From positions 7,564,001-7,628,000 of the forward strand of contig CM034548.1 in assembly GCA_020055645.1 (NCBI GenBank): a stretch of 64,000 nt of DNA, written 5' to 3'. The DNA is from Tomocerus qinae (Eukaryota > Arthropoda > Collembola > Entomobryomorpha > Tomoceridae). The position numbers and the translations under genes are program-made. This document shows, piece by piece, positions 2,205 through 63,678 of the stretch (position 1 is the first letter of the stretch; the number at the start of each line of letters is the position of its first letter). The notes beneath the pieces were generated by a model. That model was not told where the DNA came from. It worked only from the letters and a program-made list of their open reading frames with translations, and searched no databases.

Positions 2205-5200
2205 GTAAGTTCCTCTCTTCCCATGCATCTTCACGCATCCCAGCACACACACATCTAATCTGACTTCATACTTACTTAATAGCTAAGCAGCCTATCTCCC
2301 TATCTCCGATTATGCATCCCAGTAAGTAGGTGGCCTCTTTAGCCACTTTTACCTCTTCTTCTACAATTTGCAGCCTGTCCGCTCACCACAAACCATATGG
2401 CCCTCACAATCATCACGTTTTAATGGAATCACAGTTTTAATTTAATATCTAGGAATACATCTTAACATGTCATGCATGGATTCACATCATTCTTAAGTCA
2501 ATTACTATACTCCAAATTTAAGGCATACCTTCTAATAATCATAATAATACTTGGCTATTGCAGAAACCTCTTTCCTAATTGTAGCTGTAGTCCAATAATT
2601 TCATTCATAAAGTAAATAATACCTATCTGTTCAACGATAATATTCTGAAATTAATCTACCTATAGTGATATAGGTCTTATAGTACATTCTTACAATTTCA
2701 TTAATACTGGTATTTATTAATTACGTTATAAAAGGGAACATACCTAAACAATAAACGGAATATAATTGTATTAGATGTAGAAAAGAAGGGAATTCCAATA
2801 ATTGGGGGCTATAGTAAACTTTCATTAATTGCATTGCTAGCAGATGATGATATAAAAAAGGTTCAGTGAATTAGAAGGAGTATTTATACTTATTGTAGAT
2901 GAAGTCTCTGGTTGACTGACATTTATGCAGTAGTGAAAGTGAGTTGGTAATTATCTCCTTATTGACGAAGAGTATAAAGTTATTTAAGGTGGATGAGTGT
3001 CGTGTGTAAATGGGTGTGTGGGAAATATGTAATCCAGATAATAGTTATGTAGTTTGTAGAAGGTTGTATGTGTGATATATTGCATGTACATAATAAGTAA
3101 TGTAGTGTGTGGAGGATGAGCGTTGGTGTGGGCAGAGCGAGAATGCTGATTGTGAGTCGGAGTAATTCCTTGAAGCCAAAAACGAGTGCTAGCTCGACTC
3201 AACTGCTCTGGCTCCTTACTTACTTAGTTAGTAGTTAGTCGAGAGAAAGGAAGATGTAATGAAATTGTATGTCTTGCCTTGGTTTACTTGACTGGAGTTT
3301 AGTTAAGTTTAGTTTAGTGGGACTGGCTGACTTGGACTCCGACTGCACTCTCTAACTACTTCGTTCGTCCTCGTCTCTCTCTCTAATACATATTTGTTGA
3401 GAGTGGACTTGACTTGGTCGCTCTGACTCTTTCTCCACTGCCTACTACTTTCTCTCTCCCACATACAGTCCAACTCCACTAGTACTACTACAAGGATAGC
3501 TACTACTTACTACTACCTACTACTACTACTTACTTACTATGTACATTTGTATGTGAGATATATTTTGTAGTATAGCTGTAGTATATAGCATACCACACTC
3601 CACAATCCACTCACTCACTCAAGTACTGTGAGTGAACATTGTGAAAGTAATTTGTCGAGAATGTTGTATTCAATTTTACTTGGTTTCTTACATGTACCAC
3701 TATGGTGAGTATGCATTACTTATGGAAAGTGAAATAGTAGTAGGCGAAGTGGAGCCAAAGCACACTCTCCACTTAAATCCAACAAGATTCTCCTTTGATA
3801 GTAATTTGAATTCGGCCAAAAGACGGGGAATATAACTTGTGACTGTGAATGGGAACATGAGTAATAGAAATTATGGTGCGGTGGATAGACGATAGACTCC
3901 ATCAACTAACCCTCTTCCCCATGTCTCTGCTCTACTTTCTTTAACTTTTCATTTTTTAATAGATTTGTGTATCTGTAGGTGTTTTCTGAGTATTACATAT
4001 ACTTTTACTGCAAGATCCAATCACATAATATTGATACTATAATGTAACCGATGACCTAGAGTGAAGTATCATGTTGTCTCTGCATCGTTGGTTAGTAAGT
4101 ACATAATATGCATTTGTAGATTTGGTATATATGTATGTACCTTGCAATTAGATCTCACAATGTGTAAGATATATTTAGAGAACTCGCATGTTGGTTGCAT
4201 TTGAGCTGATTGTGATTGTACAGAGAGGTTTTATAGGAGTTGGATAGTGGTAAGCTAGTGAGGATAAGCTGGCGGTGTAGTTTAGCGTGTGTGCATAAGA
4301 CGAGTACTCGGCTCAACTCTTCAGAGAGATAGAGAATGTAGACTAAGCCTAAGCTCGAGTTGACTTGGAAGTGGATGGATAATGGAAATGAAAAGAGAAA
4401 AGTAGAGGATGTTTTCGACTGTCGGATAAAGTCAGTTGTTGATCTGACACGTAATTTCATTATCCTCGTCTTGTTCCGTTTGCCCTCTCCATAATTTTTT
4501 GTTGACTACGGAGCATTACTAGGAGGAGACGGACTAGTAGAGTCGGCTGTACTTACTTTGGCCGTGTGTGTCTGTTGTATAGAGACTTATATATCGTATT
4601 GTCTGACATGCCACATAGTTACACTTTTGCATTAGGCCAGGCAGGACAGGCCGACGGAGAAAAGCCAAACCAGGCAGACCAGTGCCTTACGAACAAGACT
4701 AACTGACTGAGTGCTACAGACATTCACTTCAGCTCTATCTCTCTGTATTTACAGTTGCTCAGACACAATTCTGTGTGTTTGTCGTTGGATAACTCGGTAA
4801 TGTACGTACTCTCTCTCTACTACTACTACAGCTGTAGCAGTTGATATAAGTGCTTAACGAACATGCACTCTCTAACTATCTATGTGGAGAAAGTGGGAGA
4901 AAACCACCCATACATGCATACGTACATAAATACATACATGTACATCCTACATGCTATATAAATACATATTATACATTCTGCATGCTATATAAATGTATAG
5001 GTACTACTTACATATAGCTGGGCTTCTCAGAAGAGGGAAGGGAAAGCCAAGGAAGCACAATCCAACTCACACAACGTAGTCGTAATAAACATTGACTCAA
5101 CTTATGTAGCTTGCAACCAAACCAACAATAAGTAACATGAAAGAAGTATGCACAACATTTTACACTCGACAAACAAAAAACGGATGTCCCCCTGTACTCT

Positions 5201-8200
5201 ACTACAATACAATGCAATACAATACACTATCCTTCTGCCAGAACACAATAGAATTCTGCTCTACTCTCGATCTCTTCTGTAGTAGTACTAAGGATAATAA
5301 GTGTATGTATGTATTATATTGGAGAGATACTACATTATAAGGGAATACCTAAAAAGTATACGAGATATATCCGTACTACCTTCTGCTTATCTTACAATGT
5401 ACAAGTTACGTCATGGGACTAACTGAAGATCCAATGCAAATAGTAAACGTATGTACTATTACATACGCTGTGATACATTTAGTACATATAGGTATAGGCG
5501 ACTACTTTACATGTTTTATATTCCGGAGGATAATAGAAACATCGTCGAAAGAAGAGAATGTGAATGTACCTAAAATAATGCATTGATAGGTACCTACATA
5601 AAATAACTGTAACTGTGGCCTTAACTGGAGACGCAATCGGCCTGTCGGACAATAACGGCATAGTTCACTCGAGTACGTACTCCACTTGAAATCAGTAATA
5701 AACTTCTTTCTCTGGAGAAGTGGATGAAACTGAACTGAAGTGAACGGAAACTGTGGGGAGTGGGGATGTAGGTTTTTATGTAGCTCCAAGACTCACAAAT
5801 GTGTTCCAGACAGGAAGAAAAGGAATAGCAGAGGCCAAGTCAAGATGATGAGACTTTGCTGAAAGAAAAGTGACTTTTTACTATCCCATGTGCATTGTGT
5901 CATTGAATTAGTACCGGTGTCAAGTCAACTCAGCATCCACAAAAAGAAAAACCTATTATTAGTGTCAACATCCTGCACATCTACCAACATTCTCCCCAAA
6001 TACACATCAGATATAGATATTCATTTGTTAATCGTATTTCAATTCTTCTGTCATCCACTGTTTATATGCTTTGGCTAAAAACTTGCATTTTTCTCAACTG
6101 CTCCAACTCACTAATACAACTATTTTTATCTTATAAGGGCCTATACTTACTATATTTAGCTACTGCAAAGTTCTATAGCATCTTCTACTAACTATTAACA
6201 AAATGTTGCACAGTTTTATCATAACTATACTGTGATAGGCGTACCTATTATCTGTAGACGTAGGACAGGAAGTCACATATAGACAAGATATTTGTTTGTT
6301 ACACTTCACTGAGCAAATGGAAGACAATTGGCTTCTCTCTTCTCCTCTGACAGGAAACAAAGGAAATCAGGTTGTCAAATAGTTTATCTTATCAGCCACC
6401 CACTCTTATCCTATTCTTCTGTGCACGATAACCTTTAATATTATCCGTTGTGGCTTTATACATATGGACAGGAAATTATCTTACACGATCATAAATTGTA
6501 ATGATAGAATTACAGATAGCATTATGTAATACTATAGACCTTTAAATCTAGATGTATAAATCGTTTAAAACTTTGAAAGATTGTATCAATTGTATTGTAT
6601 TTGTATATGCGTGGGTGGTACTAGGACTACAGAAATTATTAGTGCTAAATCATAGATATTACTGTCTGAATTGCATTTTGGATTGTGAAAATATAATAAG
6701 CTGGGTGAATAAATAAAACAGTCATACATATTAAATCTATTAAATACATAGAAATATCAATTTTAGTTTCGCAGAATTTAGGTAGTGATATATTTATAAT
6801 TGTAAATGAATAGGTTTGTTTAAGCAAACAACTTAGACAATTGTAACGTATGAAAAGCAGTTGGCAGAAGGATAGGTGAGTTAGTTAGCTGTAGAGACAA
6901 TGGCAAGTTAACTTTCAGAGTGGTGTGAGTTGGGAGTTGGGGATAATTGAAGGATGTAGCAGGGCAAGGTGAATTAAAACGGATAGTATAGGTAAAGTAG
7001 TTATTATCGTCTTTCTGTTTACACTATTCATTCTGTGTAGACAAGGAATCATTCACACAACTTTGTGTACAAAACTCAATTGAACTCAAGCTAGTTGCTA
7101 TGGCTCATCTTCTCCATAGACTGACTGACTACTCTCCCTAATACGCCCGAATAGTCTTGGAGAGAAATTTAATTTTGCTTGTGGCAGGATAAACATGCAT
7201 ATTGACGATGAGTGAGTCTATTGAATTGCATTGACTTCACTTGAACCGATCTCCACTGAACGGGATTAAGCCAAGCACTCTACTCGAGGTACTTATGCTA
7301 CTAAACAAAATTAACTTTCTCTTCCGATTTAACTTTCTCTGTCACAACGTAATAAACTAAACATATATCCGCGGTGTAATGATTGTAACTCATACGTAGA
7401 ATCATAACTAATGAATCCTTTTAATTCCGGAGCATTGAAACACATCCTCAACATTCTAAAAGTGGTACGACTTGGTACGTTTGGCATAAATCGTTCAGTA
7501 GAAATTACCTAAATATCTTCATACTTTTGTATCATTGAAGACCAAATACAAGCATGTACTATGTGGAAATTCTACCACTCTATTCAAATCCTATCAATTA
7601 CCTTTTCCGCATAGTCTTGTTGATACTGCTAGTGCAGAATCCGAAAACAAACTTTTTCAAGTGTAGATCTCATGTAATTACAAGTAATCCCATTCGTTGA
7701 GATGAAACTTGCCTTGTAACACTTAACGTGTAGGACGAAGCATTTAGGTTACAAAGAGGTACCTACTAGGAATTACGTAAGTAAGTATCTACAGCTTCGC
7801 CGAGTGTTTATATTTACTTAGAAATTCTAATTAACTCGATACAGTTCAACCCACTCCGTTTTGATAAATACTTGTTATCTACTCCTTCTCTCTCTCAGTT
7901 GTTTAACTAAATTATAACTAAATAACTGCAGGTAACTAGGATAGCTACTTCCTTCCTCCAACGCACAGAATACTATAAATAACTTCTGTACTGGTACTAC
8001 TATTACTCACTGAACTCCATACCTACAACACTAATATTATTATCTTCACTTAAGTTGAACCTACATTCCACATTAACAGGTAACTGTTTTCAATGTTTGC
8101 AAATTATTTTCAATTGCTAATACACACAGCATCAACATTGTATGGCTAGACAAGTAGCTTTCTATTAGTTGAAATAACTAACTGCTATATTTTAAAATGT

Positions 8201-8800
8201 TGATGTTTGTGTTTACATTCCTGTCATACAAATGGTTTAATTGAACTGAGACTATTATGTTTTGTTGGTAGAAGATCATGCTGATAAAAAAGTGACATCC
8301 TTTACCGTTGTTGCAAGTTGTAATACTTCGAGTACAATAGTAAAGCAGTATGAAAGAGCAGTAGGACACGCAATAGCAATTAATCTCTGTCTGCATATGG
8401 CAGCAGGCTACAGACTCTCAATAGTTGTGTCGTACATTCAGCTTGCCATATGGAAATTATTGTCATATTAATATCTACGTCACCCACTAGGACACAATTG
8501 AAATGGATCTACAAGTATAAGACGCATGTGTTCAAATTATTATTTTATTCATGACATTAGGTACTTATTCCCTAGAAATGAAGTTCTTGTATACAATGTA
8601 CCAATTTTTCTTATTTTATACACGTTTTATTAATGTCTTCGTTAGACCATTGGGAAATTTTGTTAGGCATACTATAGTGATAGTATACTTTTTGGAATGA
8701 AATGTGTATTATCATCAAAGTAGCTACCAGCTCCAACTCAAAAAGTAATATTTGACAGTTGTGACAATGGTATTTTTGTTTTTTTCTGCAGAAAATATAT
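2205..8800. other. Non-coding DNA with two G-to-C skew flips and TAC repeats
   Basis: G-rich sequence (about 2980-3330) gives way to C-rich sequence (3340-3630) that includes TAC-type repeats at 3482-3540. A second flip lies near 4640 around a GC-richer core containing two 'caggcaggacaggcc'-like words. From about 5000 to 8800 the DNA is AT-rich. All ORFs there are under 95 codons, without splice context or recognisable product. I see no gene. Confidence 0.6.
3482..3540 (+). repeat. TAC-type imperfect microsatellite
   Basis: Imperfect TAC/CTAC units with TTAC interruptions, in the C-rich arm of the 3330 flip. Confidence 0.75.
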
Positions 8801-9960
8801 AATGATAAGTAACTGTGTGCGAGGGAGATGTGGCTGAGATTGATTTAGTAGTGTTATCTAATTTAATAAGAGAAGTTTCCCTAAGGGAAGCAAATTAGGA
8901 TTAGTAGAAGTGTAATAATTTACTTTGCGTGCGAGTGTTAGTAGTACTTATCTGTGTACATAAAAGTCAACTTGGTGCGATACAAAGGTGGCAATAATAT
9001 CAAAGCGATAATGTAGTGGAAAAGGATGAGATCCGGTGAAAGTGTGTTGATATAGTGCGGTGTGGAAGCTTATTTATTCGATGGGAGAGAAATCCATTGG
9101 GTGGTGAAAGCTGAAGGTAAATGGTGAGTAGATAGATGGTTGGTAATATCAGATGATGTAGATGTAATAATAAAATGGAAGATTTGAGAGACTCTCTCTG
9201 CTTTTTTGCTCTGCTGACTGACTGAGTGCTTTCGGAGAAGAGAAATGCTCACGTAGAGGATGCACTAGTTACTACTGCATAGAGTCTTATAGCATCTTCC
9301 TTTGGCACGGTTTGCTGGGAAAGGAGCAGAGTTCAGTTATGTCAGTTTTAGTCTTCTTGCTGTGAAAGGTCGTGGATATACTTTAGCTTATTGGCTTTAG
9401 TTGGGAGAAAGATGAAAAGATGAAGGGATTCATATGAAGAAAATACATTCTAATAGAGATATACTTTTAGTACTTGTGTGTGGGGCTGCAGTATTATATT
9501 CCATTGTAGTACTACATTACTACTAGTAGACAGTGCATTGCAGTGATGTTTCTCTATATAGATCAGTACTGCAAAGTAAATAACGTACCTACTGCATATA
9601 TAGCATAAGTAAGTATAAGTGCATATTGTAAGTATTTTGTAGGGGAAATGTACTTTTATATCACTTGAGAGTGACTATCTTTATTGTGCAGTAAGTAAGG
9701 TTTCATAGTACGTATAATAAAAGTTTGCAATTATTAGCGGCACATATGTAATCGGATTTTTAAGAGGGCAGAAGAGGTCACTCTTATTTAGTGGCATTTA
9801 AGTCCAATTTTGAAAAAGATTTTTGTAAAAGTCGGAGATTAGAGTAGTGACAATAGTCGGTTTTAGTTGTGTGTATTAGAAAAGACGATGGATAAATAGA
9901 TAGAGTGAGTAAGTGGCTGGCAGTTATCCATAAGGTTTTCAAATTATAGTCCGGGTAGGA
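8801..9960. other. G-rich, C-poor block without genes
   Basis: The + strand is poor in C for about 1.3 kb, with GTG/GAG-rich words, forming the left arm of the skew flip near 10270. The minus-strand ORFs at 9070-9252 and 9784-10014 are Ser/Thr/Pro/Leu-rich products of this skew. Confidence 0.6.
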
Positions 9961-10146
9961 TTGTGTGCTAGAGTTGGATGGAGTCATATTTATAGTTTGG
10001 TTGGAGCGTCGCATTGGGAGCCTTGGTGGGTGAGTGAGCTATCATTCATGATGTTGATTGTTGGTTTAGTGCAGAGAGCAAAGAAGGAGTATGACGGAGA
10101 ACGTGATATGATAGGTCCTTTCGATTGCTCCGAAACCAGAGAAAGA
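9961..10146 (+). CDS. Weak candidate exon ending at GTAAGT
   Basis: The frame is open from at least 9961. Its first true ATG pair is at 10048, giving a 33-codon segment that begins MMLIVGLVQRAKKEYDG and ends SETRER at an AGA|GTAAGT donor, phase 0. Balanced charge and a consensus donor make it better than the surrounding ORFs. No good acceptor was found on the left. The strong phase-0 acceptor at 32423 would be compatible, but that pairing is pure speculation. Confidence 0.2.
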
Positions 10147-13100
10147 GTAAGTTTTTCAAAGAGAAAGTCAAAGTAAACGGGAAAAAATTATGTGTTGGCT
10201 TTGCGTTGGCATATAAGCCAAGGGAAGTGAACTGGACGAGCAGGGAACTCAAGTCCAGCAAACATAACTAACAAAACAGACATAAGCCAAGTCAAACCAC
10301 ACAGAAACAGCGGAAAGATAGGAAGGGAAACAGAAGGCAGGTTCCTCCGGCCTGTCCGCTCTACTTTTGTTCATACTTTTGTCTTATTGTTACATACTTT
10401 TCTCTCTCTCTGCCTCTTGTCAGCTATTAGTGTCTCTCCAACTGTGTGCCAATGTTACTAAACTATAAACTACATCTCCAAATGTGTTTATGCTCACATA
10501 CTTACGTAACCTTCTACCATTATAATGCATACCCTTCTCACTATGCCAATAATCTTTTCTAGGCGTATATACAATCATGAATTTTCAATGTAGATCGTCA
10601 TTTTATATTGATTCAACTAATTATCTATATAAGTGCTCATATTATTATGCTATTTTTATCTCACCTTCATCTTAATACACTAATTCGCTTTTGTAGTTCT
10701 GTTTAGAATAACAAACGAAACTATAATTGCTACTACAAAATAGATAACCTCTAGACAATACAGATAAATAATTCCCATGGCAATTAGTTTTAATTTAAAC
10801 ATGTAACAAAATACGATATATAGGGTATTACAATTTAGAATATTTTATGTTTTGTTTTACACTACAAAATATATATAGTTGGGGGTCTTGGGGTAGAGCA
10901 ATAATTAACATGCGATTGCAGGAGCTATTAGCAGAGTAATTTTAGTCTGCGTCAAGTAAAAGATTGTGTAATTATCTTAACCTCGACGTCTTGAGGTTGT
11001 GCAGAGAAGAGAGAAAGGAGGAGGCAGTAGTAAATAAATGATTTTGCAAGTGTTTATAGTCTTTATTACTGGATGGGGACGTTAAATGTTGGCATGGTGG
11101 AAGGGTATTTGGAATGTTCTTTAGCTATAGAGTTAATAGTAGTAGTACATAAGTACAAGTAGTGATTATAGAAAAAGGAGGATGAGTAAAACGATAAGTT
11201 ATATTATAGAGTGTATAGTGTGGTGCTTAATAAGAGAGAGGAAAGGGGAATGAGCGTATGTTTATAATAATGCAGGAGTGCATAGACGAGAAAGTTACAA
11301 GTAGATGAAAAGGCAAACAATAAGAAAGGAAAAGAGACAAGGATAATCGTAGATAGAAATGGTAATAGTTGAAAGATATATTAGGGAAGACTATTGTGGA
11401 GGTACCTTGAGTCAGTCTGTCTCTATTTTTATATGTATTTACAAAAAGAAAGAGGAACAAAGCTCGGAGAGATTATAAAGAAAGAAAGGAGGCTATGAGA
11501 AAAGAAAGCACGGGATAAAATGGATATAATAATAATAAGTACCAACGTACGTTCTACTATTAATATATATATCTATTTCACTACTCTCGGTTGTATATAA
11601 TTTATACTAGTAGAGCAGAGGGTATTATAGATAAATGTGGAACAAGTAGTGCATAGTAGTAGTAGGAGGTTCTTCTTCTGCCCGAGTGTATATTGTACTA
11701 GTATGTGTATGTATGTATGTGTGTGTGTGTTTGGTAGGAGTAGTGGAGAGATGGAGAGAGAGACCACTGGCATGTGGATGATAAATTCCTGTGGCTGCAA
11801 TAATCTCAGAATGGTACACGAAATAAAAGGGGCTTTGACCACAGTTATCACGGCCATATATTTATGAGAAGCACCATCGTTTTCCAGCTTGAAATGCTCA
11901 TTCCTGTAATATTGTATAAATTTATGTGCTGCAAATATTGGAGCTGAGGCGAAAGCTTCAACCTCCGAGGACTCCTCACTGCTTCACTGCCACTAATAGT
12001 AATAGTAATCGTCCTCACTCTCTTGCCCGTCTCGAAAGGAAGGGGACAGGAACGAGAAACACTAACATTTGAGCAGGGCAGAGCAAAGAGCACTTTCTCT
12101 TCCTTTCTCCACTTTCTCATTCCATTCTACTTACACAGTATAATAACATGTACATACATACATTACATGTTGTTCTCACAAAGAAAGACGTCGTGAGTGA
12201 GTCATATACATACGTACCTACCTACCTATATAATATGTACATACATTCGGCTACAGTTCACCCGCCATCCGCCAACCACCACACCGACATCCTCCCTCAC
12301 AATCAGTTCACCTCTTTCTCTGCCTCGCCTCTCTCTCAAATGATATTAGCATCGTCCTGTGGTGAAAGTACATTGTGTTTCATCTCATATCCTCCATCTC
12401 CATCAAATCCGTCTACCTATTTACTCAGTGCATAATACAATGCATATTATGTACCTATGCCTACGTAAATAGGCAAGACTCTTCGTTAACTCTCTAACTC
12501 TAAATGATACGGTTAAGTATATCAAGAATGGGCTTCTTACTCACTGACTTACACTAAACTCCGAGTTCTAAATACTAAACGTCTCATCCTGCATTGCATT
12601 GTGTGTGGAGGGATGTAATATTATGTAGAATCACTTTCACTCCCGCGTCTCCTGAAGACAACTTGACTTTCATCACAAACGAACCCCATTTGCTCCTCCA
12701 TAGTTCAGTTCCGTCGGTGCTTACTAGCCCGATGATGTCTCGCCGTGTCCTGTCTCTGATGTGCCTCGACTACTTCATAGCTCTCTCTTATGTTATATCA
12801 AAGATCATTTTATGTCAAGAACTCTTATTAAAATCCTGCTCTGATGAATGAGAGTTTTGTAACGTCCCAGACTTTCCTACACCCACATACTTTATGCTCT
12901 CCTATTCTTACTTACGATTAGACTCATGTCACTATATTCCTCATCTATCTATTCAAAACCAACAAACTTCTTACATTCCATTCTATTTAATACTCTATCA
13001 CATTTACAATATTATACTCTTATACTATATCCATTTCTTTGCTTTACTGACGTGCAATAATAACCTCTCAGCATACACATATATAATAATAATGGATAGA

Positions 13101-14480
13101 TAAAGATCGATTATAAAGGCTTGTCTCTTGTTTAACACTAACTCAACCATACTATACACACACTAAAACATATAATGTCATCTTTACCTTGAACATTTTG
13201 CTCTGCATTTTGAGTATTGATTTACACTAACATTTTTGAATGGATGTAGAAGATCATGAAAATTCCAAGTACAAGGTATATCAGCATAGCATTAAATAAA
13301 AGACAATATGCTCTGTAGACTTTCAGTTACACTTCAGTGACAGAGCCTAATGAAAAGTCAAGCCTTCCTTAAGAGAGAATTAGACAATGACAATAAGGGC
13401 TGAGACTGTCTACTAAACAGAGAAACTAATAAGAAACTATGCAGCAATAATGCATTGAATAGCAAAGGAGGAAAGCATTAACAAAAGCGAGACTCTCTCT
13501 CCTTATCGTTACTTGTTTTGTGGTTTCTATTATCTCCTAAGAAGACTAAGAAAATACTAAGCAGGAGAGACTGCACTCACAATCACTCTAATAATGTGTA
13601 ACCTACAAGACAATTAAAATGAGGTCGCTATAAAATGATGTTCAAATGAGGTACCTGTGTGTACTAAACTCTAACAATGACTACTATGTATTTCATGTTT
13701 TCCTACTTTCTCATTCCACTGCTAATAATCTTCTTGGCGGAATAAAGGATAGCAAATAACTTGGTTTTGTTTTTATAACCTGCTATTCTGTGCCGTCAAT
13801 GTTCATTAACACTAAAAGAACCTTTTGAGAAATTTTAAAGCCATAGATAATTGTTACTGATTAATCATTATTACCTAGGACATAATATTTTAGTTTCTTT
13901 TTCTTTGTAATTTAACTCCTGACATAAATCTAGAGTAAAATAAACCTTACATTCAATTCGTAAATTATTGCAAGGTTTTGGTATGATTAAAGATTTATAC
14001 AAAAAGATATTCTTGTTTTGCCCCGATAATATCTGCGTGTAAATAGCAACCATAATATAATTCTAGTAGCGCCAATAGTAGTAGTCGTGTATAGTTGGTA
14101 GTCGTTGATGCCGTTGCCTTAATATGGGATGGAGTTGGGTCCTTTTGGAATTCCCATTTCATTTTATCTTATTAAGCGGTTTGTTTAGTTGGATGTAGTA
14201 AATAGTCTATGTCATGCTGGTCTGTACAAGTAGACTTGATTCATAAAGCAATGTAAAGTGCAAGGTATTGCAGCGGCATAAGTTCTCATACTTCTTCGGC
14301 AGTAATTTAAACCATAGCGAAAGCCACGGACAGAACGCCATTTCTAATCTAATGATAAGTTAGAGTTACAAGGCGTAATACGTCCGTACTTAGGTACTTG
14401 CATATTATTTCTGTACTACTTCCACAGGTTACAAGACTTGCATAAGTATACAGACATACCTAGGTATTATTGCCACTATA
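10147..14480. other. Non-coding DNA with two skew flips
   Basis: A flip near 10270 surrounds a core with AAGCCAA, AAGTCAA (10289-10295) and a 'tcctccggcctgtccgctc' word. C-rich DNA follows to about 10530, then AT-rich DNA. G-rich sequence from about 11000 to 11800 carries a GTAT/GT tract at 11701-11731 and flips to C-rich near 11950, which continues to about 13060. An open plus frame at 12594-12851 includes a good internal acceptor at 12702-12703 but closes within a few codons in other frames. Confidence 0.6.
11701..11731 (+). repeat. GTAT/GT microsatellite
   Basis: GTAT units grading into (GT)n, in the G-rich arm of the 11950 flip. Confidence 0.8.
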
Positions 14481-14483
14481 AAT

Positions 14484-14792
14484 GTGTCCTTGCTTTATTG
14501 TGGCAGGCTATTGTGTGGAGCGGTAGTAGATTTTAACTTTCACCCATTTCATGGCCTTGCTGAAATCATTGTCGACAACATTTCTCTAAGATGCTTCTCT
14601 GTAGTGTTTTGTCGTGGACTGGAGTCTGGGATCACCTCCTCCTGGTCTCAAGAGAAGAGTGAGCGGGGAGAAAATAGTGCAGTGGAAAGTGGGAATGTCG
14701 TGAAGAGAGAATCCAGCTGTGGGACTAAAGCCTTTATTCATGTTCTGGTTCTCCTGTTGGGATTAACAGGGAAATGGAGCCAAGGCGGATGA
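14484..14792 (+). other. 102-codon open frame, probably not a gene
   Basis: The frame opens at GTG, not ATG, and encodes a mixed peptide with many Cys, Val and Leu residues and no motif I know. It lies on the left side of a skew flip near 14800. No matching splice sites or poly(A) signal frame it. Its length is within chance expectation for 128 kb of double-strand reading. Confidence 0.2.
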
Positions 14793-18129: not shown

Positions 18130-18251
18130 CCAGTTATCATCCAAATATAAAACAATTACTGGAATTGAGAAGAGTGGATGGAAGAGCGAGGTGTTGGAAA
18201 GCAAAGCATTCGTTCTGGAGACCAAGTTGTCATGAGGTCTATAAATTATAA
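18130..18251 (+). CDS. Weak candidate terminal exon, phase-1 acceptor
   Basis: A very good acceptor (ctgtctgtgttatgtcaacag) ends at 18129. In the frame that takes two bases first (phase 1), 39 codons follow before TAA at 18249-18251. The peptide is basic, with His, Trp and Cys residues (begins SYHPNIKQLLELRR). The phase matches the donor at 566, so it could be a distal alternative last exon of that gene. It has no recognisable domain, and stretches this long after an acceptor occur by chance. Confidence 0.2.
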
Positions 18252-20920: not shown

Positions 20921-20942
20921 CACACACATACACACACACACA
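20921..20942 (+). repeat. AC microsatellite
   Basis: AC units with one AT interruption, in the C-rich arm of the 20780 flip. Confidence 0.85.
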
Positions 20943-45496: not shown

Positions 45497-45539
45497 GCAA
45501 CTAAAACTACATCTTTTCCTTTGTTAACATCGAGTAGTC

Positions 45540-51700: not shown

Positions 51701-53190
51701 TTCATGAATTACTTGATCCCAAGAGTGATATTTAGCGCCTTATTTCTTCTATTTACATTGCCCTAACTAAAATACAAGTTAAAACTTCAAAACGCATTTA
51801 AACATGCACGTGTCATAAAATCAAGATTATTTCACTTTAAAATGCTTTTACCAACCAATTAGACTTCTCAATAATTGAGAGACCTAATCCTAATCAAGAC
51901 CTTTCTGTTTAATTAGAAAATTGACAACTTTTATGCATACTTTGGGAAGGGGAAGGACAGAGCATTTCATCACCAGCAATTGAGAAGGAACATTGCTGGC
52001 AGGGAAATTTTTAATACCACAACCGTGATAGCATGCTTCTGCCCGACCTGTGAACGTAAATGTTTTACCACTCACAATGCTCCTAGCACTTGAGATTTAC
52101 TGTCATTCTAATAAAAAAGATTATTTTAACCTTTCTATCTAGCTAATATTAGTTTTTTACAACATCCCCCGTGATGCGCCACGAAAACTCTCCCTCCTAT
52201 CTGAAAAGCCCACAAATTAAATTAGCTCTGGGCATTTATTTATTAAATCTCAAGAAGCGCACTTCCCACTTTCTGTTCTAATTATATTCATTTTGGATCC
52301 CTCATAACTTTCTATTGGGTTGAAATTAACATAGCATTAAATGACATTCTATGGTTTAGATTCAAATAACATTATTATAGCCATCGTTAGCTCCATTATG
52401 AATATATTGCTATACCCTGGAGTAAGAACAATTATGTTTCCCGTTGAGAATCTCAATGACTACCTGAATAACCTGAAGATTGCATGTCGGTAAAAATTTA
52501 GCGTTTGGCTGTAATTCATTGGAAAAAAATACTGTACATTTTACTTGTATACGGTTTGAGCAGTGCACACCCATATAAATTGTTATTAGTATAAAATCTC
52601 TCACCAGGTATTTATTTTCAGGTTGAAAGAGCTTTATAAGCTTCCAAGTAAAATATAGTGTCATAAATGTTTTCTGATATGCTCGATTCTTTATTGACTG
52701 CACAAATAATACATAATGGTGTCATTTCTTGGATTCTATTTAAAAATTTATTTGATAGAAAATGTACAAAGATTACATTTTTGTAATAGTAATTAACTTC
52801 GGGTTACCATTATCATCTTTTGAATTTGAAATTACATCAAATGTTGATGATAACTGTTGAATTAATATGTCTACTGTGCGACTGGGCACTGGCCCGAAAT
52901 TCATCGACGACGTCATCATCGCACAAATTCCCTACGTACTAACATTCCACATTTTTTAATGCGCAACTCCACTTTACTTTTGTACTATTAGTGTGATTAC
53001 CTAACTTATTATATAAATGACTCCGAAGAAGCCATTTTACTTTTGTATAAACTACTATTGTTTAGTGTAGAAGTACTTTATCAAGTGTAGATATGTTTCT
53101 ACAGTATGGTAACCATTTAATTGTAATTTTCAAATCGGTTTTATTCATATGCAGTCCGATTTTCACATAGTTGCATAACATTATAAAGTT
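45777..53190. other. Non-coding DNA with flips near 46430, 48760, 50060 and 51060
   Basis: AT-rich DNA interrupted by four G-rich to C-rich transitions. Plus frames at 48872-49231 and 51089-51467 lie in C-rich arms, and the minus frame at 48469-48753 lies in a G-rich arm, as the skew predicts. No splice-supported exon was found. Confidence 0.6.
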
Positions 53191-56100
53191 TGAATGGATG
53201 CACTCAGTAGGGATGAATAGAGTAGAAAAGAGAAGGAGTAAGGTATGTGTGAACGTCGATTTAAGTGTTAGTGGTAAGTGTGAACAGGGGGATGAGTGAA
53301 CTGTTTTAGTAATAGTGGAGCATCTGTAACAATAATAATAACAATAATGCATAATGAAAAACATTTAGGTAATATATGGAGTAATACGATTACAATAACG
53401 GTGGAATATGATAATATATGTAATGGGATTGTGAATGAGAATAATGCGTTGTTGAGTTGGCTGAGTCAAATGAGAATCAGTAGAAGGGCTGCTCTACGTG
53501 GGGAAAACGATTCAAAGGTTTAGCTCCCATTCAGAGAGAATGGGTTGTTAGAGGTTTACTTTTATAGTAGCTCCGGAGAAAAGAGACGTCGAGTAATGCT
53601 CTACTTTAGGTACTCAAACTACATCTCATGTGGCTCCTACTACCTAACTCTTCGGACTCTCCCTAATAACTCCTATAATAATGTTTCTACTGATTTGAAG
53701 TTGAACTGCATGCATTGTCAGTTTCCTTTAGTTATCTGTATTATCACTATCGCTTATTTTTATCCATTTCTATCCATCCGTTTCTTAAACAAATTGTTAG
53801 TAGATCAAATGGGTAAATAATTATTTTAAAAATTAACTGACGGACAGAATGCATTATCTTATACCATAGTTGCATCTAAATTCAAACAACTTAATTTTTT
53901 CCATTATAAATAAAATATGATAAATGATATTGTGAAGTATTTAACCATGGATTGTTAGTATGGATATTGTGGATGAAGTAAGTCTGCGTAGATATTTGTG
54001 GAAGTGAATTGGATTGATACGTCAGATAGAGGAGAAGAAAAAAATCTTATTGGAATGGTAGCATATGGTATGATAGCTTGAGTTGAATTCAGCCTCAGCT
54101 TTCTTCCCTCACTCAGTTTGTTATTCTTCCCCATGTATCCTTTAGGATTTTCTAGCACAATCACACTATCCTCTGTCTGGCTTGAAAGAGGAACATGTTG
54201 AAACTCTCCGAGTAGTCGACTCTGCCTGACTTGACTTTAGTACTACTCGGAAACTGAGATTCTCCATCTCTTCCTCTTATTTCTTCCTGCTCTATATAAT
54301 AATATCTTTATATAGATATATACTGTACTATACATATGATGATGCCTGTATAGAGATCTCTATGTATGTAGCAGGAGTCCCTGTTGACATTTGGTGGCTA
54401 TTGTTCATAAATCATGGGATTGTTTCTAAATGGGAACATTTGGGTTCCATTCGAGACAATTGATGAGGGCATTTATGTGTCTTGTAAACTAAAGGAGAGT
54501 TACACTTACACACAGAGAACTTATGTACTTTCTACCTCTTCTCACACTAACTACCACAATACGCTTAGCTATAGCTGCACCTTTATGCTGCCATTTCATT
54601 TGTACTCTCCTTCTTTTCACCATATTCCTTAGCTGGTATGATTTTGTGACTAAGGGCAGGTCAGGCCATATCAAACGATTATTATAATGCCTTTTAGCAC
54701 CCTATGGCAGCAAATCTCATTGATTGCCATTAAATCCCAATCTAAATAGCGACATAAGTTAACTCGAATGGATTACTAAATTACCCACCGACTACTTAAC
54801 TCATTAGTTCTGCCTATCCATTCCATATTAGTGCAAAATCCAATAGCGAAATTAAATACACACCATTAAATAGTCTATGCAATAGTCAGAATTTAGGAAT
54901 CATGTGGAAGTAAAGTAATTGCCAAGTTAAATACAGCTCTCACATAAATTCCTATTCATAAACGTTTAGAGTCTCTATTTGATTTTATGTAATGCTTTCA
55001 GACAGCACTTTATCGCTAGTTGGTTTGAGTATGTAACATGTGTATACTTATGGTCGAAATGGCTGAAGTGCTACTGACATCTTTAAACAGTGTGTCGACA
55101 AGCATTCCATGGGCTTATCATATTACTTACAACAAGTGCCACGGATTCAAAGGTTATAGGTAAAGACGAGATGAGAAGCTCATTTTATCCTTTGCATTAA
55201 AGCATTGACTGAGATTGGATTTGTTGAGAAACAGGTCATCATAGCAGAATAATAGGAACTCTAAAATTAAAAATAGCAGGTTAAAAAACAATTCCAAAAA
55301 TTTGTTTTTATGATAGTGGGTCACAAACAATAGAATTATTTTTAGATAAAAAGTTGTACGAATTTAATTGCCAAATAAGGTTATCAAGAAATGCAGAATG
55401 AAAAATAAAATGACGAGTGTAGCACAAGAAATAGTGAGTTGAGTTGAGTGGTGTGTTGTCTGATGGTGGGAAGATGGTACGTGCGCTTGAGAAGAGTAGC
55501 TAATCGTTAAGAATATAGGGAGAGGATTGTGAAAATTGCAATGGAGCCATTTAATTTGTAAGGAAATCCGAGATGAGTGAGATGAGGATGTAGCGAAAGG
55601 GTTACGAATATGGGAATGAGATAGGGAAGAAGATAGTGTATTTGCATGGGCGTTTGTAGTGTAGTTTGGGAGACGTAGGAGTGAGTGTGTTATGTGATGA
55701 GAAGATAGGGTTGATGGAGAAAAGGAGTATAGAGGCAGGTAGGGATTCATAATAATATTAGTAGGTACCTTATCTCGGTATCCTCTTTGTCTATCATATC
55801 CGTGCATGTAGATACATAATATTCTATTATATTCAGCTTGTGTGTTATGTGATCTAAGAAGATTGGTGGTGGTATGTGTGTGGAGCCTTTATGGGATAAG
55901 TTGATAATAGGTAGCGGCTGAGCTTAGTTATTCAATTCGTTTCATGAATATCAAGTGACGGCAGGTTTTAGTGGTAAGCCAAGCATGAGCGGCTTCCAGG
56001 AACACGGCTCACTTTCTATTCTCCTTTCTTATAGTTTTTCCAGCTTTTACTTCTATTTTCTCCCCAAATTCACACTTTATCCACATACTTACCGACATAG

Positions 56101-58480
56101 GAACAACCTGCTACTTAATACACACTGCTTTATAGTCAGACACGCTCTAAGCAAGTGTATGCGTACTCAGACCACGGAATCTACACAATCTAATGGGTAG
56201 TAGTTGCTTGTAAAATCTCCTATCCTATCATCTCACTCAGTCACTTGCGAATTTGTTTCTTCCCACAGTCCGTTTTGTTCAAGCTTGTTAGAGATCCTCC
56301 ATCCAACGCCAGTCCTAACCAACGTACGTAGTAGAGTCGACCAAGTAAACTCCTTCTTCGGAATTTTTTCACTCCTCTTAAATAATACTACTTCCCAACA
56401 TATACTTGACTCCCAACAACCTGTCTCTACCTAACTCTTTTTGTCCTCCTGCCTGACTGCGTACTATCTGTAGTAAGTAGTACTCGTTTTCTATGTATAC
56501 TTCTATGTATATGGCTAAGTATAAAATATATACATAACAGAAATAGAGTACTAAAGCTGGGAGATCCGTGTCTCACCTTCTATTTAGACGATATAAGTTA
56601 TAACGTAGTTTAAGCGAAGATCAGATAAATAGACACTTATTTCATTCATCCGACTGCAGATATGCGTATAGTTGATCTTGATCCTACTTTAGTCCCAAAG
56701 TCCCATTCTATTAGTGGGAATAGGCCCCTTGATATGAGTGAGTGCCAGTGTTGGTCCTACATAAGTCCTGTGAGTGGCTTCTTTTGGTTTCTTACGAAAG
56801 ACTATCCTGGGTCCACATGGACGGAATCTATCCAGCACGTTTACTTTACACAGATCACAATGTCACACTGCTCTACTATCCACCCAGTAAATACGGGGTC
56901 TATAGTAATAGGAGATAAGTGGCCTCTGACGATAATACAACATTATAACCTTACACTCATTCCATGATATAAGACTCAAAAATGTCCCGAGATTTTCCGC
57001 TAAATTCTGAGCTGAACTGAATTCTCCACTAACTTGTCTTCACTTGTCACCAGTGTCTTCTACATTTTCTTAAAAGTCTGGGAACCCTCTATTTAACCCA
57101 TGCAATTTCCTTTTGTCTTCTCAGACACGATACACAATATTGTGTGCATAGAGTAGATATGAAACTAACCGTAAGTATTGTTGAAAAGTAGCTTTGCATT
57201 TGCTCATCTTTTAGAAGCACTTTAGGCCAATGTCATGCCATTTCACTCTTACCCTCGCTTTACCTTTCCACTTAGTAAAGACTTATTACAATATTATGTT
57301 AGCACTGCCTCTGTTCCCTCGTATTTGTATAGTTATACCGGTGAACATGAGTTGACTTGAGACTAGAGAGAGTGTCAATATTCTTGTGAAACCACGAACA
57401 TATTTATACACATGTCTTACTTTATGCATTTTACTTTACAAGTCTTCTTCCGCACTTACCACAACTTTTCTCGATGAAAGTTGCACGTACTTGTTCCTGT
57501 ATAATATCCAATGAAATAAGATTGCATAATATTATACTCACCCCTATACTTTCTCCTGAGTTGAATATAATTTCTGCCTGACTGCATCCAAACTTTCAGT
57601 TGTCGCTGGAGATATCACCTTCACCTTTTTGCAAAATGAGACTGTGATGCATTTTTATAACGAACTATGCATTATAAACGAAATTCTAAAGTTAATTAGA
57701 AAACTTGTTTTCAATTGTCAATTTCGTAAAATCATACTAGTACGAGGAATTTTAGATTTCTCCAGGAAATAAATACATTCAAAAACTAGGTATATAGAGT
57801 AAAACTAGGGGTTGAAAATTAGGGCTTGTGTCTTGTATAGTTATTCCATTTAATAAAGTAAAAATATCCCTATTTTCATTTTGGTTCTGAATTCTCAAAT
57901 TATTTCAAGCATAAATTATTCGCAGAAGATTTAAGTCTTTAAGCTTCTGGAGATGTTTGGTGAGTAAGAGCTATTCGTATTATTTAAATGACAGAAAAAA
58001 GTAATTTGAGTGCCAATATTAAGAGTATTAGACCCTAGGAGATAAGCTTTGCGGGCTAATTCACATAATCATCATCAACGAACGGTTCTTTTGAGCACAG
58101 TTAAAGAGTCACTTATTGGAGTGTTCAATCCCATCTGTCCACTTAACTTTCTCTTTTAAAAGTACATATAGAGACAGATGCAACTCTCGCAGAGTTAGAG
58201 AGGAGGATCGTATAGCTGCACAAAATGCCTAGTTGGGAATGTTGAATAGTTTTCTGCGTTTCTCAAGTACCGAATGGGGAATGCTCGAGAACGCTATTTA
58301 GTGTTAATACGAAACTTGCATCCCGACTTATTATGATGTGTTTTATTGCCCTTTCTTTCGTTTGTGTATATCCACTCCAATTTATATCTGTAGATGGCAT
58401 ATTATCTCTGTGGCCTGTACATTTCCACAGAAGCAGCCAGGATAATATTATATTAGACAGCTATTTTGCTCTGTAGCCGC
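53191..58480. other. Non-coding DNA with flips near 53525, 54110 and 55990
   Basis: The 147-codon minus frame at 55364-55807 lies in the G-rich arm of the 55990 flip, is Ser/His/Thr/Leu-rich and has no splice or start support. A 14-bp perfect palindrome, ACACAATATTGTGT, is at 57132-57145. From 57200 to 58480 the DNA is AT-rich without features. Confidence 0.6.
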
Positions 58481-58492
58481 AGGTACAATTTC

Positions 58493-59328
58493 CTATTTAG
58501 AGAAATGCCTATAAATATGCATAGGGGTTAAAGCTAATTTTGAAAACACTTCACATTGAGCAGTTACCACCCGGTTGTAAGTGGCGACAGGCCACACACG
58601 ACGATTGGAATAGCGTATTATCTGTGAGTGTTTAATCAATTCAAAAGTGAAGTGGACTTGAGGAAGAATGCCTTTAGGCTTCCAATGACCTATTGCTGAT
58701 CTAGTAGTGCACCTAATTTGCTTGTAAATTAACCAAATCCACAAATTAGAATATTTCTGTCTTCATGAAAATGACAACCCTTGTTAATGCTCTAATTGAA
58801 TCATCAGGGAAACTGAATGCTCCTCCGGCTGTCTTTCTCCTTGATATTTATGGCTTCCATTTTGATATAAGAGCTGATGCAATTTTTTCATTATTAAGGA
58901 CCCATTATAAACCTTCGGGATATAGTACACTTAGTAAATATTTGAAATGCAGCTGATTTTAATTTCACGCTAATTCAAGACACTTAATTTTGAAAAAAGC
59001 GTATAAAGCTATTCAGTTGAAAGTTGCCCAACTGCAGCTTCCAAACTTTTGTCTTTGATGCCGTAGGTGTGCAGAGAATTGTCCATGATGCATGAATGCG
59101 TTGCAATATGAAAAAGGTGTGAGGAAATCGGCAGGCGATCAAAAAGCTTTTGTGTTTATATTCTCGGATTCTTTGGCAAGTACGAGGAGATCCGATAAAA
59201 TAGACATTAAAGCAAAGACATCTTGTGAATTGTGGATCGGAGAAGAGAATATTATAGTTGTACATTTGTATTTGTAACATAAGCTCTTTCAATCCGATCT
59301 CATCGGATTTGGTATATCCACTGGCCAA
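58493..59328. other. Compositionally balanced stretch with several open frames
   Basis: Here skew is weak and open frames occur on both strands: minus 58493-58744 and 58984-59328, plus 58765-58956 (true ATG, begins MKMTTLVNALIESSGKL, 63 codons) and plus 59092-59277 (ATG in frame, 61 codons). The peptides have balanced composition, unlike the skew-driven ORFs, so a decayed gene or element is possible. None carries a motif I recognise and the frames do not join by clear splice sites. Confidence 0.3.
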
Positions 59329-60503
59329 TAAGCAGTCATATAATACTGAAACGACAGCGAGAAGAACTAACAGAGCATCACAGGATGCAAGAGAACATTT
59401 GGAACTGCAGTCTACTTTATTTTACTAGATCCAGGAAGAAGGAGTTTGTGGTACAATGCAACAATGAAAATACTCAATGTAATAAGCTTAATATATTTAC
59501 TTTCGCAAGTTATTTCTGGTAACATATTCACGAGCGAGTATAGGCACTGTGTGGATTGTACGCAACTGGACTAGAAGTTATCTGTATCTATACTACGTGT
59601 TACTTCAAAAGACCTACATATTTATTAAGGTATGTAGTATATGCATCTGCTCACTATCACTTGTGGAGATAGGAGGGACGAGGCAATTGCAAAATGCTGT
59701 GATTCTGAGAATTGAACGAGTTGAGGAGCAATAGTGTGTTTCGGTAATAGCAAATGGATTTTTTTCTCATCTTGAGACAGGATTTGAAAGGGGCGAATAG
59801 GGAATGTTTGGATTGAAACGATAAAGATGGAGAGGGGAATGTGGAAGGTGTGGGAAGTTGGTGGAATAATGTGAATGAGTGGGTTGTCTTTTTGTCTGAC
59901 TTCTTGTGGCCAGTGCACACATAACAATTGGAAATGACTATATGGAGTATATGAAGTGGGTTGGATATCGGAAACTAGGCTAAAGATTAAGTGTATCTTT
60001 TCCACAATACCTATTAAGATGCGGTATGGTGGAGATAGGAGTATGTAGAGAATGTGTCTTGTTTCAGTTGTGTACTAACAAAGCAAATTCTTGGTTGGAG
60101 ATAGGGAAGAGATAATGTAGAAAAAGTTCTTTCTGCTAATGCAGTATAAAGAGTATAGAAGGGAACAAATGGTGAAAATAGTGATGATAAGTATAAGTTG
60201 ATAAGTATTGTGGAAAGTACAAGTGAGATTTGCAGTGAACTGCACTGAGTGAGTGAGAGAGTTTTCTGGAGTTGGACGGCTCAAATGTAAACTTGTGGAA
60301 ATAAAAGGGAGAAATGGTCCATGGTCGTTTGTGAGACATTGAATGTCTGTTGTAAGGACTATGAAGGTCCTCTATAATAATATGTACAAATAGTCGGCCG
60401 AAAGACATTTCTCCAAGAATGTGAGAAATATATCTACGGAGAGATCGTGTGGGAGAAAGTAGGGAAAGAGAAGAGGACCATCTGTCAGCATGCAAACCAT
60501 TAG
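59329..60503. other. G-rich left arm, no gene
   Basis: The + strand is strongly C-poor from about 59560 to 60480. Minus frames at 59625-60005 and 60136-60495 (126 and 119 codons) are Ser/His/Tyr/Leu-rich products of that skew. Confidence 0.6.
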
Positions 60504-60701
60504 GGCGAGGTTCAGGTGTGCATCCAGCGAGAAGCTAAGCGTCCGGGATTGAGTTCGATATCCCCGGTAACGAGGCAATCACCCAAGCCGTCAACGCGCC
60601 CATCTATCAGATCCTCAGATGAGGATGAGCACGGGCCACAATCTCCCGTATTTTCTCGACTTCACTTCTTCCCTCGCCTATGTCTGATATCTATCTCTTA
60701 A
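60504..60701 (+). CDS. Candidate exon with Ser/Pro-rich acidic peptide
   Basis: A CpG-rich patch at about 60530-60650 reads in one frame as RPGLSSISPVTRQSPKPSTR followed by an Arg/Ser/Asp/Glu segment (SSDEDEHGPQSPVFSR), closing at TAA 60699-60701. AGs before 60504, 60516 and 60528 are all phase 0 for this frame, but their pyrimidine tracts are poor; a CCC|GTATTT donor is weak. The peptide style is like the exon at 1-565, yet its phase does not fit the donor at 566. It lies exactly at a skew flip, where GC-rich cores are usual. Confidence 0.25.
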   Translation, partial: GEVQVCIQREAKRPGLSSISPVTRQSPKPSTRPSIRSSDEDEHGPQSPVFSRLHFFPRLCLISIS

Positions 60702-62548
60702 CTTTACCATTTGCACTTGACGGAGTCTAACTCCATACTATACTTTCTCCTATTTATTCCTCTTGTCCCTGACTTGTCTATCTATCTCCGACCAACCGAC
60801 CGACTACTACAACTACTGCTGCAACTCCTACTACTATGTACTATGCTAGAGAGAGTCGGAGACACAAGACTACCTTCCTTTGCTTACTTCTTACTCAATT
60901 TCTTCACAACTTCCTACCGTAATGCTCCCTCAACCTAATAGGACTTTATCTATCTACAATGCATAGACCAACTATAGATAGTACGTGTAGACACCAATCT
61001 TAAGACATCATATATGTAAATAATATATTATATCTCAAGCTACCTGACTTATAGTATCAGTGTCTACTCCATAGTACTACTCTTATATATTATGCGGATC
61101 TACTTACTTTTAAATTGCAAAGTGTGTACAGGACAAAGATTACCATGTGACTTCTATATCCTTTTCGTTTCCGTAGTAAGATCTACGTACTATCTCTTCG
61201 CATTATACAAAAGGCCTACCTACAGATAGTTGAGAAGATTTTACAATTTGTAAAGTTGTAGTACATATGTTTTGAAGGCATGATGTTTGTACAGGGTTAC
61301 AAATGTGAATCCCTTCCCTACTTCCCTATTCCCCTGAGAAAAGCTAAACTCTTCTTAATTTTTGCTTTGCTGACACTAAATGTCTCTATATGGAAAATCT
61401 GTTTCCAGAATTGTGACACAAAAATAAAGCATTGTAAGGCTACAATGCAAAATATTGTTTTTAGAATTATTTTTGATGTGCAGATTACTTGTCGAATTAG
61501 TGCTAAGGTGACAAAGATGTTTGCCACCCTGTGCATAGATTGATGTACATAGGTAGGTAAAACGTAAAGTACATACGGCAGTTTAAGTGAAGTGGAGGAA
61601 TCTGTGTGTACCTTTTGTGTGTTCTAGTAGTAGTAGTAGTAGTAGCAGTGATATACTGGCATAGTGTGCCTGTAAAGTTATGTGATATAGACGGAGATAA
61701 AAGTTGGAGTGCGAGTGGTTGTTCTTTCCTCTTTTCGTCAGAGACATTCAGAGATAGACAGATGGAGGAAGGATGGGCTGATACATTGGTTCAAGTGGCA
61801 CTATGTGGACTTTTGTTAGAATTACGTTAGATAACTTAGGTTAGCTTTAGTTTTGTGTGGAGATGAGGATGAGAGTGGAGTTGTAATGTAAAGAGATAGT
61901 GTGGAGCTGGCGTGGTGGTGGCGGGGAAGAAAGGGCAGTGTATTCTTAGCTACTTACACTCTCCTCGGTTTCGTGCACAAGTATGGAATTACACTAAATA
62001 GTACGTGTGAGCGTATAGATCTAAACAGATGGATAGGGAGATAGAGAGGAAGACAGAGACGAACCAAAAAGTCTATGACAAATGGATGAGCCGCAAACAC
62101 AAGGGAGGGCTTAGGTAGACGTGTACGGGTCGCTAACAAGCACCTGACAAATCCCTGGCTCAACTGGGTCATCCCATTCACATCCCGATCTCGTTGTCTC
62201 TCATCTTCTCTCCAGTTCTCCTCGGCTCAAGTCAGTCGGCTCTAGTGGAGTGAGACGGGATGAACAGATCCTTCCTCACAACCATCCACAGCCTCCTCCA
62301 AGCAAGCGTCTGCAAAACTGAATCAGCTATGTACACATACTTTACGTGGATAGACACACTCACCAACCAACCTGCCTACATTCTTTCTTTCTCCACTTTC
62401 TCCAATCCAACGAAAACCAAGAAGTTGGCTTTAGCCACACACTTAATACTTACAGAACCATACATTTCATACTCACATAATATCTGTAAATAGAAACTAA
62501 TGGTTAGTAAGGACACGACGGTCGTATACAAATTCCTTATATCCATAC
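60702..62548. other. Non-coding DNA, C-rich arm then flip near 62100
   Basis: C-rich DNA to about 60970, AT-rich DNA to 61550, then a G-rich block with (TAG)7 at 61625-61645 up to about 61950. C-rich sequence follows 62140. The 61280-61543 frame starts at ATG but lacks splice context. Confidence 0.55.
61625..61645 (+). repeat. (TAG)7 microsatellite
   Basis: Seven perfect TAG units in the G-rich arm of the 62100 flip. Confidence 0.9.
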
Positions 62549-63139
62549 ATGTACTCTGTATGTAATGTACACGGAGTGGGGCAAGTACCCCGCATCTTGT
62601 TGTACTGTCCTTGCATTAGTAGTAGTGTCCAGCGGAAGGAGGGAAAGTACAGATACAGACGCCTATGCTTGTCCGTTGTCTTCCGAAAACATAATCTCCT
62701 CAATAAAGCTCATAACTCCGCACTGGAGTCCACCAGGACGATCAACATGAGACGGAGGAGAGGACGGTCGGTTCGGTCGGATGTTCGCAGGCAGTGAGTT
62801 CCACTGAGCTGGCAGCTTCCTAACGATAAGTCAAAGCCAAACCTAAGCAAACATAACAAAACTATCAATGCTCTCCGCATGCCGGCCGACGAGTCACTCC
62901 AAATCAAAACCACCATAATATCACATCTTCCTCCACTCGACTCTGATACTCAGATAGTAGAAGGCATTATTAGCCAGGCACTTCTCTGCCTACCTTCGTC
63001 TCACTGCATGGACATGCACCGGAGAAAGAGATCGAAACAGAGATATCTATTCAGTGCACAAACACAAGATAAACAAACTACCCGTGTCCTTCCCTCTTTT
63101 TGTCCGAGACACATCCATCTCTTTCCCCGTGCCATTTGA
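62549..63139 (+). CDS. Open frame of 197 codons interrupted by one TGA; possibly broken
   Basis: From ATG 62549 the frame is open to TGA at 62795-62797, then open again in the same frame to TGA at 63137-63139. The second half contains an ATG at 62879 (MPADESLQIKTTIISHLPPL…) and has a believable mix of Asp, Glu, Lys, Ser and Leu. The internal TGA overlaps a consensus donor (CA|GTGAGT at 62794), so the first half could instead be an exon ending at 62793. Alternatives are a decayed pseudogene, the antisense of a LINE tail, or chance in a G-poor region. No domain recognised. Confidence 0.25.
62683..62822 (-). mobile_element. Possible decayed non-LTR retrotransposon RT tail
   Basis: On the minus strand one frame reads RKLPAQWNSLPANIR, close to the W-N-S-L-P motif that ends many jockey/CR1/RTE-type reverse transcriptase ORFs, and stays open to a TAG at 62664-62666. 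The preceding codons contain two stops, so it would be degenerate. The residues after the motif do not follow the usual pattern, so this may be coincidence. Confidence 0.2.
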
Positions 63140-63678
63140 TCCTTATGCTCATCTCTGTATATTTTATTTATTTATGTCCTCATTCCATTTCATCTACAAT
63201 GCTCCCTACATCCCCAGCTTACCCAATCCAACCTCTGTTTATGTATGTATTATTTCAGTTCCTAAAACCAGACCCACACACAGGTATTTTCACATTCTTT
63301 TTCACTGCCCCATGTGCTCTACTTTTACATCATCAGATACAAAAACACATACAGTACTGCCATGTTATTTATATAAATACAAATTCCCGGTCTACGTACA
63401 CTTAAAAATATTTATTTTAAAGTCAATCCAAAACTTGGGGGATGAAACGCAGACGCATTTTTTTATATAACAACTAACTACTCTAACCAACTAATGGCTA
63501 TTGAGAACGGGTTAAAATATACTTACTCCAAAAATTTACCAACTGATGTTTTACTTTCTCATAATTTTTGGAAATTATATACTATCTGTATGGTTTGAAA
63601 GAAACACTTGCTTGCAATTTACTGCTACTACACCATTTTGGGAATATGACATGATAAAATGACAACTCTGTCCTGTAA
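63140..63678. other. C-rich non-coding arm
   Basis: Strongly G-poor sequence giving overlapping Ser/His/Pro/Leu-rich plus frames (63054-63470, 63100-63405), then AT-rich DNA. No gene supported. Confidence 0.55.

Follow-up and report, generated by a model that had tools for sequence, protein, structure and literature searches.

What makes a stretch of DNA switch, again and again, from a G-rich to a C-rich strand within some 50 bp? This question is raised by a 64-kb stretch of the collembolan Tomocerus qinae, contig CM034548.1 (C3:7,564,001-7,628,000; hereafter, the window), in an assembly of 334 Mb and 115 contigs whose members C1-C5 measure 140, 72, 52, 34 and 24 Mb. The window is gene-poor, with a GC content of 36% and a CpG observed/expected ratio of 0.60. 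An original prediction, made by eye, described 27 abrupt flips of GC skew (the excess of G over C on the forward strand) along it. Our tentative answer is that the window may be a dense array of putative cis-regulatory elements at a developmental locus, the outward strands of which would have become C-biased through divergent transcription.

To establish whether the flips are real, we scored each listed position by a 400-bp contrast, counted as positive when G prevails on the left and C on the right. All 27 contrasts were positive and 26 exceeded 0.3, with a mean of 0.577; at circularly shifted control positions the mean was 0.00 and the standard deviation (SD) 0.074, the two values serving as the yardstick because the shifts included near-zero ones (maximum 0.585). 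A step detector based on a two-arm skew contrast (300-bp arms, z ≥ 4, 400-bp exclusion) found 29 G-to-C steps in the window, and 23 of the 27 listed flips lay at most 150 bp from one of them, the exceptions being 4640, 15840, 37150 and 40150. With 250-bp arms and z ≥ 5, the detector returned 18 G-to-C and 3 C-to-G steps, as opposed to a mean G-to-C count of 0.0 in ten first-order Markov simulations. The array of flips was thus confirmed, as was its excess over the Markov model.

The flips had also been described as all of one polarity, with gradual, AT-rich returns. At 300-bp arms and z ≥ 5, we counted 21 G-to-C versus 6 C-to-G steps; 400-bp arms and z ≥ 6 gave 15 versus 4, and masking of simple repeats (4.5% of bases) left 17 versus 6. 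With coarser arms (z ≥ 5), the counts approached each other, at 20 and 15 for 600 bp and 15 and 12 for 1000 bp, because the blocks must alternate at such a scale. The polarity is therefore an asymmetry of sharpness: G-to-C steps are abrupt more often than C-to-G steps. When 2-kb or 4-kb segments were reversed at random, the asymmetry in the whole window reached p = 0.0005, the smallest value attainable with 2000 draws, and it held in each half separately (p = 0.004-0.007 and p = 0.002-0.0075). Sharp steps in the opposite direction occur at 2757, 10815, 31885, 43317, 53187 and 55415. Hence all 27 listed flips do run from G to C and their returns are on the whole less sharp, yet "all of one polarity" slightly overstated the case, the six sharp C-to-G steps being exceptions to both descriptions; likewise, the two directions are far from equally frequent at 300 bp, but nearly equal in number at 600 and 1000 bp. 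The AT-rich nature of the returns stood, GC dropping from about 0.45 at the centers to 0.32-0.36 at 500-1000 bp.

Around each step we delimited a unit of 800 bp, to which no strand is assigned. The units recovered by the detector near a listed flip lie at 2927..3727 (step 3327, z 6.5), 9848..10648 (10248, z 6.3), 11556..12356 (11956, z 4.6), 14397..15197 (14797, z 5.4), 18899..19699 (19299, z 6.0), 20426..21226 (20826, z 4.7), 22009..22809 (22409, z 7.0), 23838..24638 (24238, z 5.9), 27724..28524 (28124, z 6.2), 30882..31682 (31282, z 6.3), 31984..32784 (32384, z 6.7), 33273..34073 (33673, z 6.1), 42357..43157 (42757, z 5.5), 43370..44170 (43770, z 5.0), 46032..46832 (46432, z 4.2), 48489..49289 (48889, z 4.4), 49697..50497 (50097, z 5.3), 50665..51465 (51065, z 7.2, the strongest), 53107..53907 (53507, z 5.4), 53693..54493 (54093, z 4.4), 55575..56375 (55975, z 6.3), 60148..60948 (60548, z 6.1) and 61730..62530 (62130, z 6.7). 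Absent from the earlier list are the units at 1752..2552 (2152, z 5.6), 5526..6326 (5926, z 4.7), 6649..7449 (7049, z 4.9), 16336..17136 (16736, z 5.1), 17865..18665 (18265, z 4.3) and 26019..26819 (26419, z 5.0). The listed flips that the detector missed correspond to weaker units at 4240..5040 (flip 4640, contrast 0.33), 15440..16240 (15840, 0.41), 36750..37550 (37150, 0.31) and 39750..40550 (40150, 0.39). The median spacing of units is about 1.9 kb.

Averaging over the 27 listed positions revealed a two-sided anatomy. Mean skew is +0.34 to +0.40 between 300 and 50 bp left of the center, reverses its sign within about 50 bp, and runs from -0.11 to -0.38 (mostly -0.2 to -0.38) over 0-450 bp on the right, so that the strand read outward is C-rich on both sides, as had been claimed. 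The mean skew fades sooner on the right (about 600 bp) than on the left (700-900 bp), and a unit reaches some 600-800 bp per side with a skew near ±0.35. Since the centers were selected by skew, only the GC and AT results are independent of that selection. GC content peaks at the centers, at 0.45 compared with 0.32-0.36 between 500 and 1000 bp away; within ±250 bp it is 0.407 versus 0.363, a value matched by none of 5000 random draws. AT skew is -0.07 to -0.13 over the first 300 bp to the right (T > A), while that of the whole window is -0.02.

In their C-rich orientation, the flanks consist of 0.30 A, 0.26 C, 0.11 G and 0.33 T, and their dinucleotide ratios lie between 0.86 and 1.16, with CpG alone at 0.64. 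A single motif as the cause of the C-rich strands was considered and rejected, the k-mer scan revealing a broad shift of composition instead. Words of the GAGA type are enriched at the centers (GAGAG, 55 inside and 142 outside, 2.7-fold), the best 5-mer being GAGAA (p = 1e-5 among 508 tested), and the C/T-rich flanks may account for part of this enrichment.

To place the window in its genome, we examined 20 stretches of 10 kb (200 kb in total) at hand-picked round coordinates. They held ten steps at z ≥ 5, of which 6 were G-to-C and 4 were C-to-G, and those in stretches L017, L021 and L035 fall, by eye, in tandem-repeat reading frames. In skew variance, compared with all 20 stretches included, every one of the sixteen 4-kb blocks of the window exceeded 18 of the 20 (p = 1e-6, the blocks being mutually non-independent). 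The window is therefore not typical of the assembly. Skew variance was highest in L030 and L025. The skew of L030 adjoins a paired-type homeobox gene, recognized by an OAR motif (1.9e-9, over the cut-off) and the terminal part of a homeodomain, which scored under the cut-off (0.0088). Some 0.55 Mb separates L025 from a homeobox cluster on C1 with ten homeodomain matches over some 1.1 Mb (C1:115557047-116673063), probably a large Hox cluster; 94 homeodomain matches were among those listed. We further read five 4-kb samples near homeodomain exons (L047-L051), placed before inspection. Skew was strong in L048 and L050, moderate in L047 and flat in L049 and L051, and L048, within the C1 cluster, contained two units shaped like those of the window.

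Several lines of evidence point to a regulatory array. The units are largely non-coding as far as the ORF and domain searches go and have a GC peak at their centers, and the CpG-poor domain to which they belong terminates close to a bystander gene; skew of a similar kind occurs beside a homeobox gene and within the homeobox cluster; and the outward C-bias agrees in direction with reports on invertebrate start sites and on conserved elements of flies, an analogy to which we return below. From these we infer that the units may act as promoters or enhancers, and that they may serve a developmental gene. According to this model, each G-to-C step would be the center of one cis-regulatory element, at which RNA polymerase II would initiate in both directions from the open center and travel a few hundred bases; over many generations, transcription-linked mutation or repair would leave the outward, sense strand C-biased. 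Divergently active regulatory elements, proposed originally as a possible cause, thus remain the best reading, in keeping with the GC peak and the outward C-bias. We are less sure of the skew as a trace of divergent transcription than of the regulatory array, since the initiator words lack orientation.

Those words are among several observations that weigh against the reading. TCAGT is the arthropod initiator, and it occurs 22 times outward and 24 times inward between -100 and 150 bp, and 19 times outward and 29 times inward over 0-300 bp of the flips. TAATTA and CAGGTA, to which developmental regulators of arthropods often bind, are depleted at the centers (0 inside versus 35 outside, and 1 versus 22, respectively). 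The homeobox-adjacent group of five stretches was not significant (p = 0.096), and across the 20 stretches skew variance was not significantly related to CpG depletion (Spearman -0.32, p = 0.17). In the six skewed stretches from elsewhere (L025, L030, L037, L047, L048 and L050), G-to-C steps number 8 and C-to-G steps 6 at z ≥ 5, the strongest step among the 20 stretches being of the C-to-G type (L025, about 9533, z 8.2). Their polarity is a trend (p = 0.09-0.14), and it reached p = 0.02-0.03 only in a second set, from which L025 and L047 were removed after being seen. A third polarity set, the random rest, comprised 14 of the 20 stretches (all except L017, L021, L025, L030, L035 and L036). No homeodomain (150 of 169 candidates scored) or zf-C4 match was found inside the window, nor a Pfam match for the protein of a probable coding exon at its left edge (1..585). 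A study of other invertebrates adds to this side of the balance, reporting only small skews in Drosophila and none of significance in C. elegans (PMC555766). Given the group p of 0.096, the weak polarity outside and the lack of a significant CpG link, the association of skew units with developmental loci is suggestive and not proven, and strict polarity has been shown in this window alone. The AATAAA signal was found 5 times outward and 15 times inward over 0-300 bp, and 21 and 39 times over 0-600 bp, approximately as local A/T bias predicts by our own estimate.

The alternative that survives best keeps the regulatory elements and changes the origin of the skew: instead of being produced by transcription, it would belong to their flanks as such (nucleosome-favoring, raised in GC and ordered by strand), either encoded in the sequence or selected for. 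We consider it rather unlikely, albeit a live rival. The closest parallel comes from Drosophila, where conserved elements and DNase sites are described as having raised GC over hundreds of bases and skewed strands with more A and C downstream, the elevated GC showing signs of evolving non-neutrally (Kenigsberg and Tanay 2013, PMC3671938). The fly signature also includes a conserved focus of about 50 bp, the core of which is AT-rich over 20-30 bp. Since C exceeds G downstream, the fly signature has the same G-to-C polarity as the window, and it is enriched in regulatory DNA. The GC peak at the window centers and the survival of the skew under simple-repeat masking are consistent with such a property. 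However, A exceeds T downstream in the fly (PMC3671938), whereas T exceeds A over the first 300 bp in the window units, and a purely structural code offers no obvious cause for opposite strands on the two sides. The two patterns also differ in how they are seen: that of the fly is an average over 67,780 elements, whereas the window units are visible singly, with a skew of about ±0.35 on average.

Divergent transcription, the origin of the skew that we prefer, finds its parallel at the transcription start sites of other organisms, the sense strands of which are reported to be C-biased in invertebrates, plants and fungi (PMC3315797). Two divergent starts of this kind would predict exactly a G-to-C step; unlike at those gene starts, no gene was recognized at the window units and TCAGT is unoriented. 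In a weaker, averaged form, outward C-bias has thus been described before, at conserved elements of flies and start sites of invertebrates; a literature search of one library, over titles and abstract openings, found no description of such skew arrays.

A third explanation takes each center as a replication start site, with leading/lagging mutation differences or origin signatures inverting the skew. The spacing of the units, with its median of 1.9 kb, is very dense for replication origins, and the canonical G-quadruplex (G4) motif occurs just once per strand in the 64 kb. The original prediction had dismissed replication on the grounds that a replication domain would not give many short symmetric units. 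This was too quick, as a vertebrate study reports that GC and AT skews invert precisely where nascent strands peak, G4 motifs lying upstream (PMC6547456), an abrupt point inversion much like ours. In vertebrates, however, the skew extends over more than 2 kb per side (PMC6547456), compared with less than about 900 bp here. Replication therefore fits poorly in scale and G4 content, and we regard it as improbable, though still a live rival. Among divergent transcription, flank selection and replication, the mechanism is not decided.

The remaining two explanations we consider very improbable. Old, diverged mobile elements with a G-rich left and a C-rich right arm would explain why the two sides resemble reverse complements in composition, but the 1.4-kb surroundings of the 51065 unit matched only their own locus in the 334-Mb assembly, and a second unit gave only short partial matches within a simple-repeat-like stretch (2 of about 29 units searched, very old copies being beyond the reach of the search), while in the window no direct repeat family of at least 30 nt was found with the settings used and the inverted repeats amounted to one 31-nt pair, 20 kb apart. 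A coding origin, in which the blocks would be small exons (convergent or divergent) or genes whose codon use is biased, would account for the 31 open reading frames (ORFs) of at least 100 aa, as opposed to 9-18 in five second-order Markov simulations, but C-rich, G-poor strands create open frames because they lack TAG and TGA. Among the 237 ORFs that reach 60 aa, the 150 longest contained no convincing protein domain, Pfam giving just two matches, both weak and isolated (E 0.00019 and 0.0096). The window also holds six small rows of tandem repeats, and Rfam and tRNA searches of it returned nothing at their thresholds.

The surroundings of the window bear on the extent of the array. The skewed, CpG-poor domain (CpG observed/expected 0.60; no strand assigned) spans the whole window, 1..64000. 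On the left, skew and low CpG persist through the 10 kb read beyond it; on the right, the domain fades by about 64-66 kb, the skew ending within about 2 kb of the window end and CpG rising to about 0.8. Past this edge, 4-6 kb right of the window, are exons of RNF220 (L038 4229-5524), with Pfam matches of 4.4e-8 and 4.1e-8, both over the cut-off. The left-edge exon (1..585, + strand) probably encodes a Q/S-rich low-complexity protein and ends, by look, in a donor-like GTAAG; that it belongs to a transcription factor would be a guess. The nearest homeodomain match, on the left, is 82 kb from the window, and since the 4-kb sample 60 kb to the left (L049) is flat, the domain is not simply continuous to that homeodomain gene.

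Some further observations concern the assembly and the sampled stretches. L036 (C6:1000001-1010000) has a skew variance far below that of the other stretches (SD of z 0.26) and is perhaps a satellite array. Long open frames on both strands of L035 (3690-4701) comprise a short tandem repeat, with an SLLEHVE unit on one strand. The 140-Mb C1 contains a COX1 frame that is stop-free under the invertebrate mitochondrial code (L009 1501-2841 = C1:36670928-36672268), and more COX1 pieces occur at C1:139.11-139.85 Mb and on C81 and C11; recent nuclear copies or a joining error would explain them. A PDB search with the stop-free copy returned only general COX1 matches. Telomere words were not found in the eight 400-bp contig ends read.

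Beyond this window, it is conceivable, albeit rather unlikely, that in this lineage active developmental elements carry a strong two-sided strand asymmetry, such that entire enhancer landscapes are legible from raw sequence with no need of chromatin data. A process in the germline, for example divergent transcription of developmental loci, would have produced this strand stamp, which would be visible element by element and not in averages only. Should the units prove regulatory, a cheap statistic of the sequence would find enhancers singly, with their center and extent, in genomes without functional data. The origin of the strand asymmetry, be it transcription, replication or selection, would then become testable per element, because the signal is strong enough to be measured in each.

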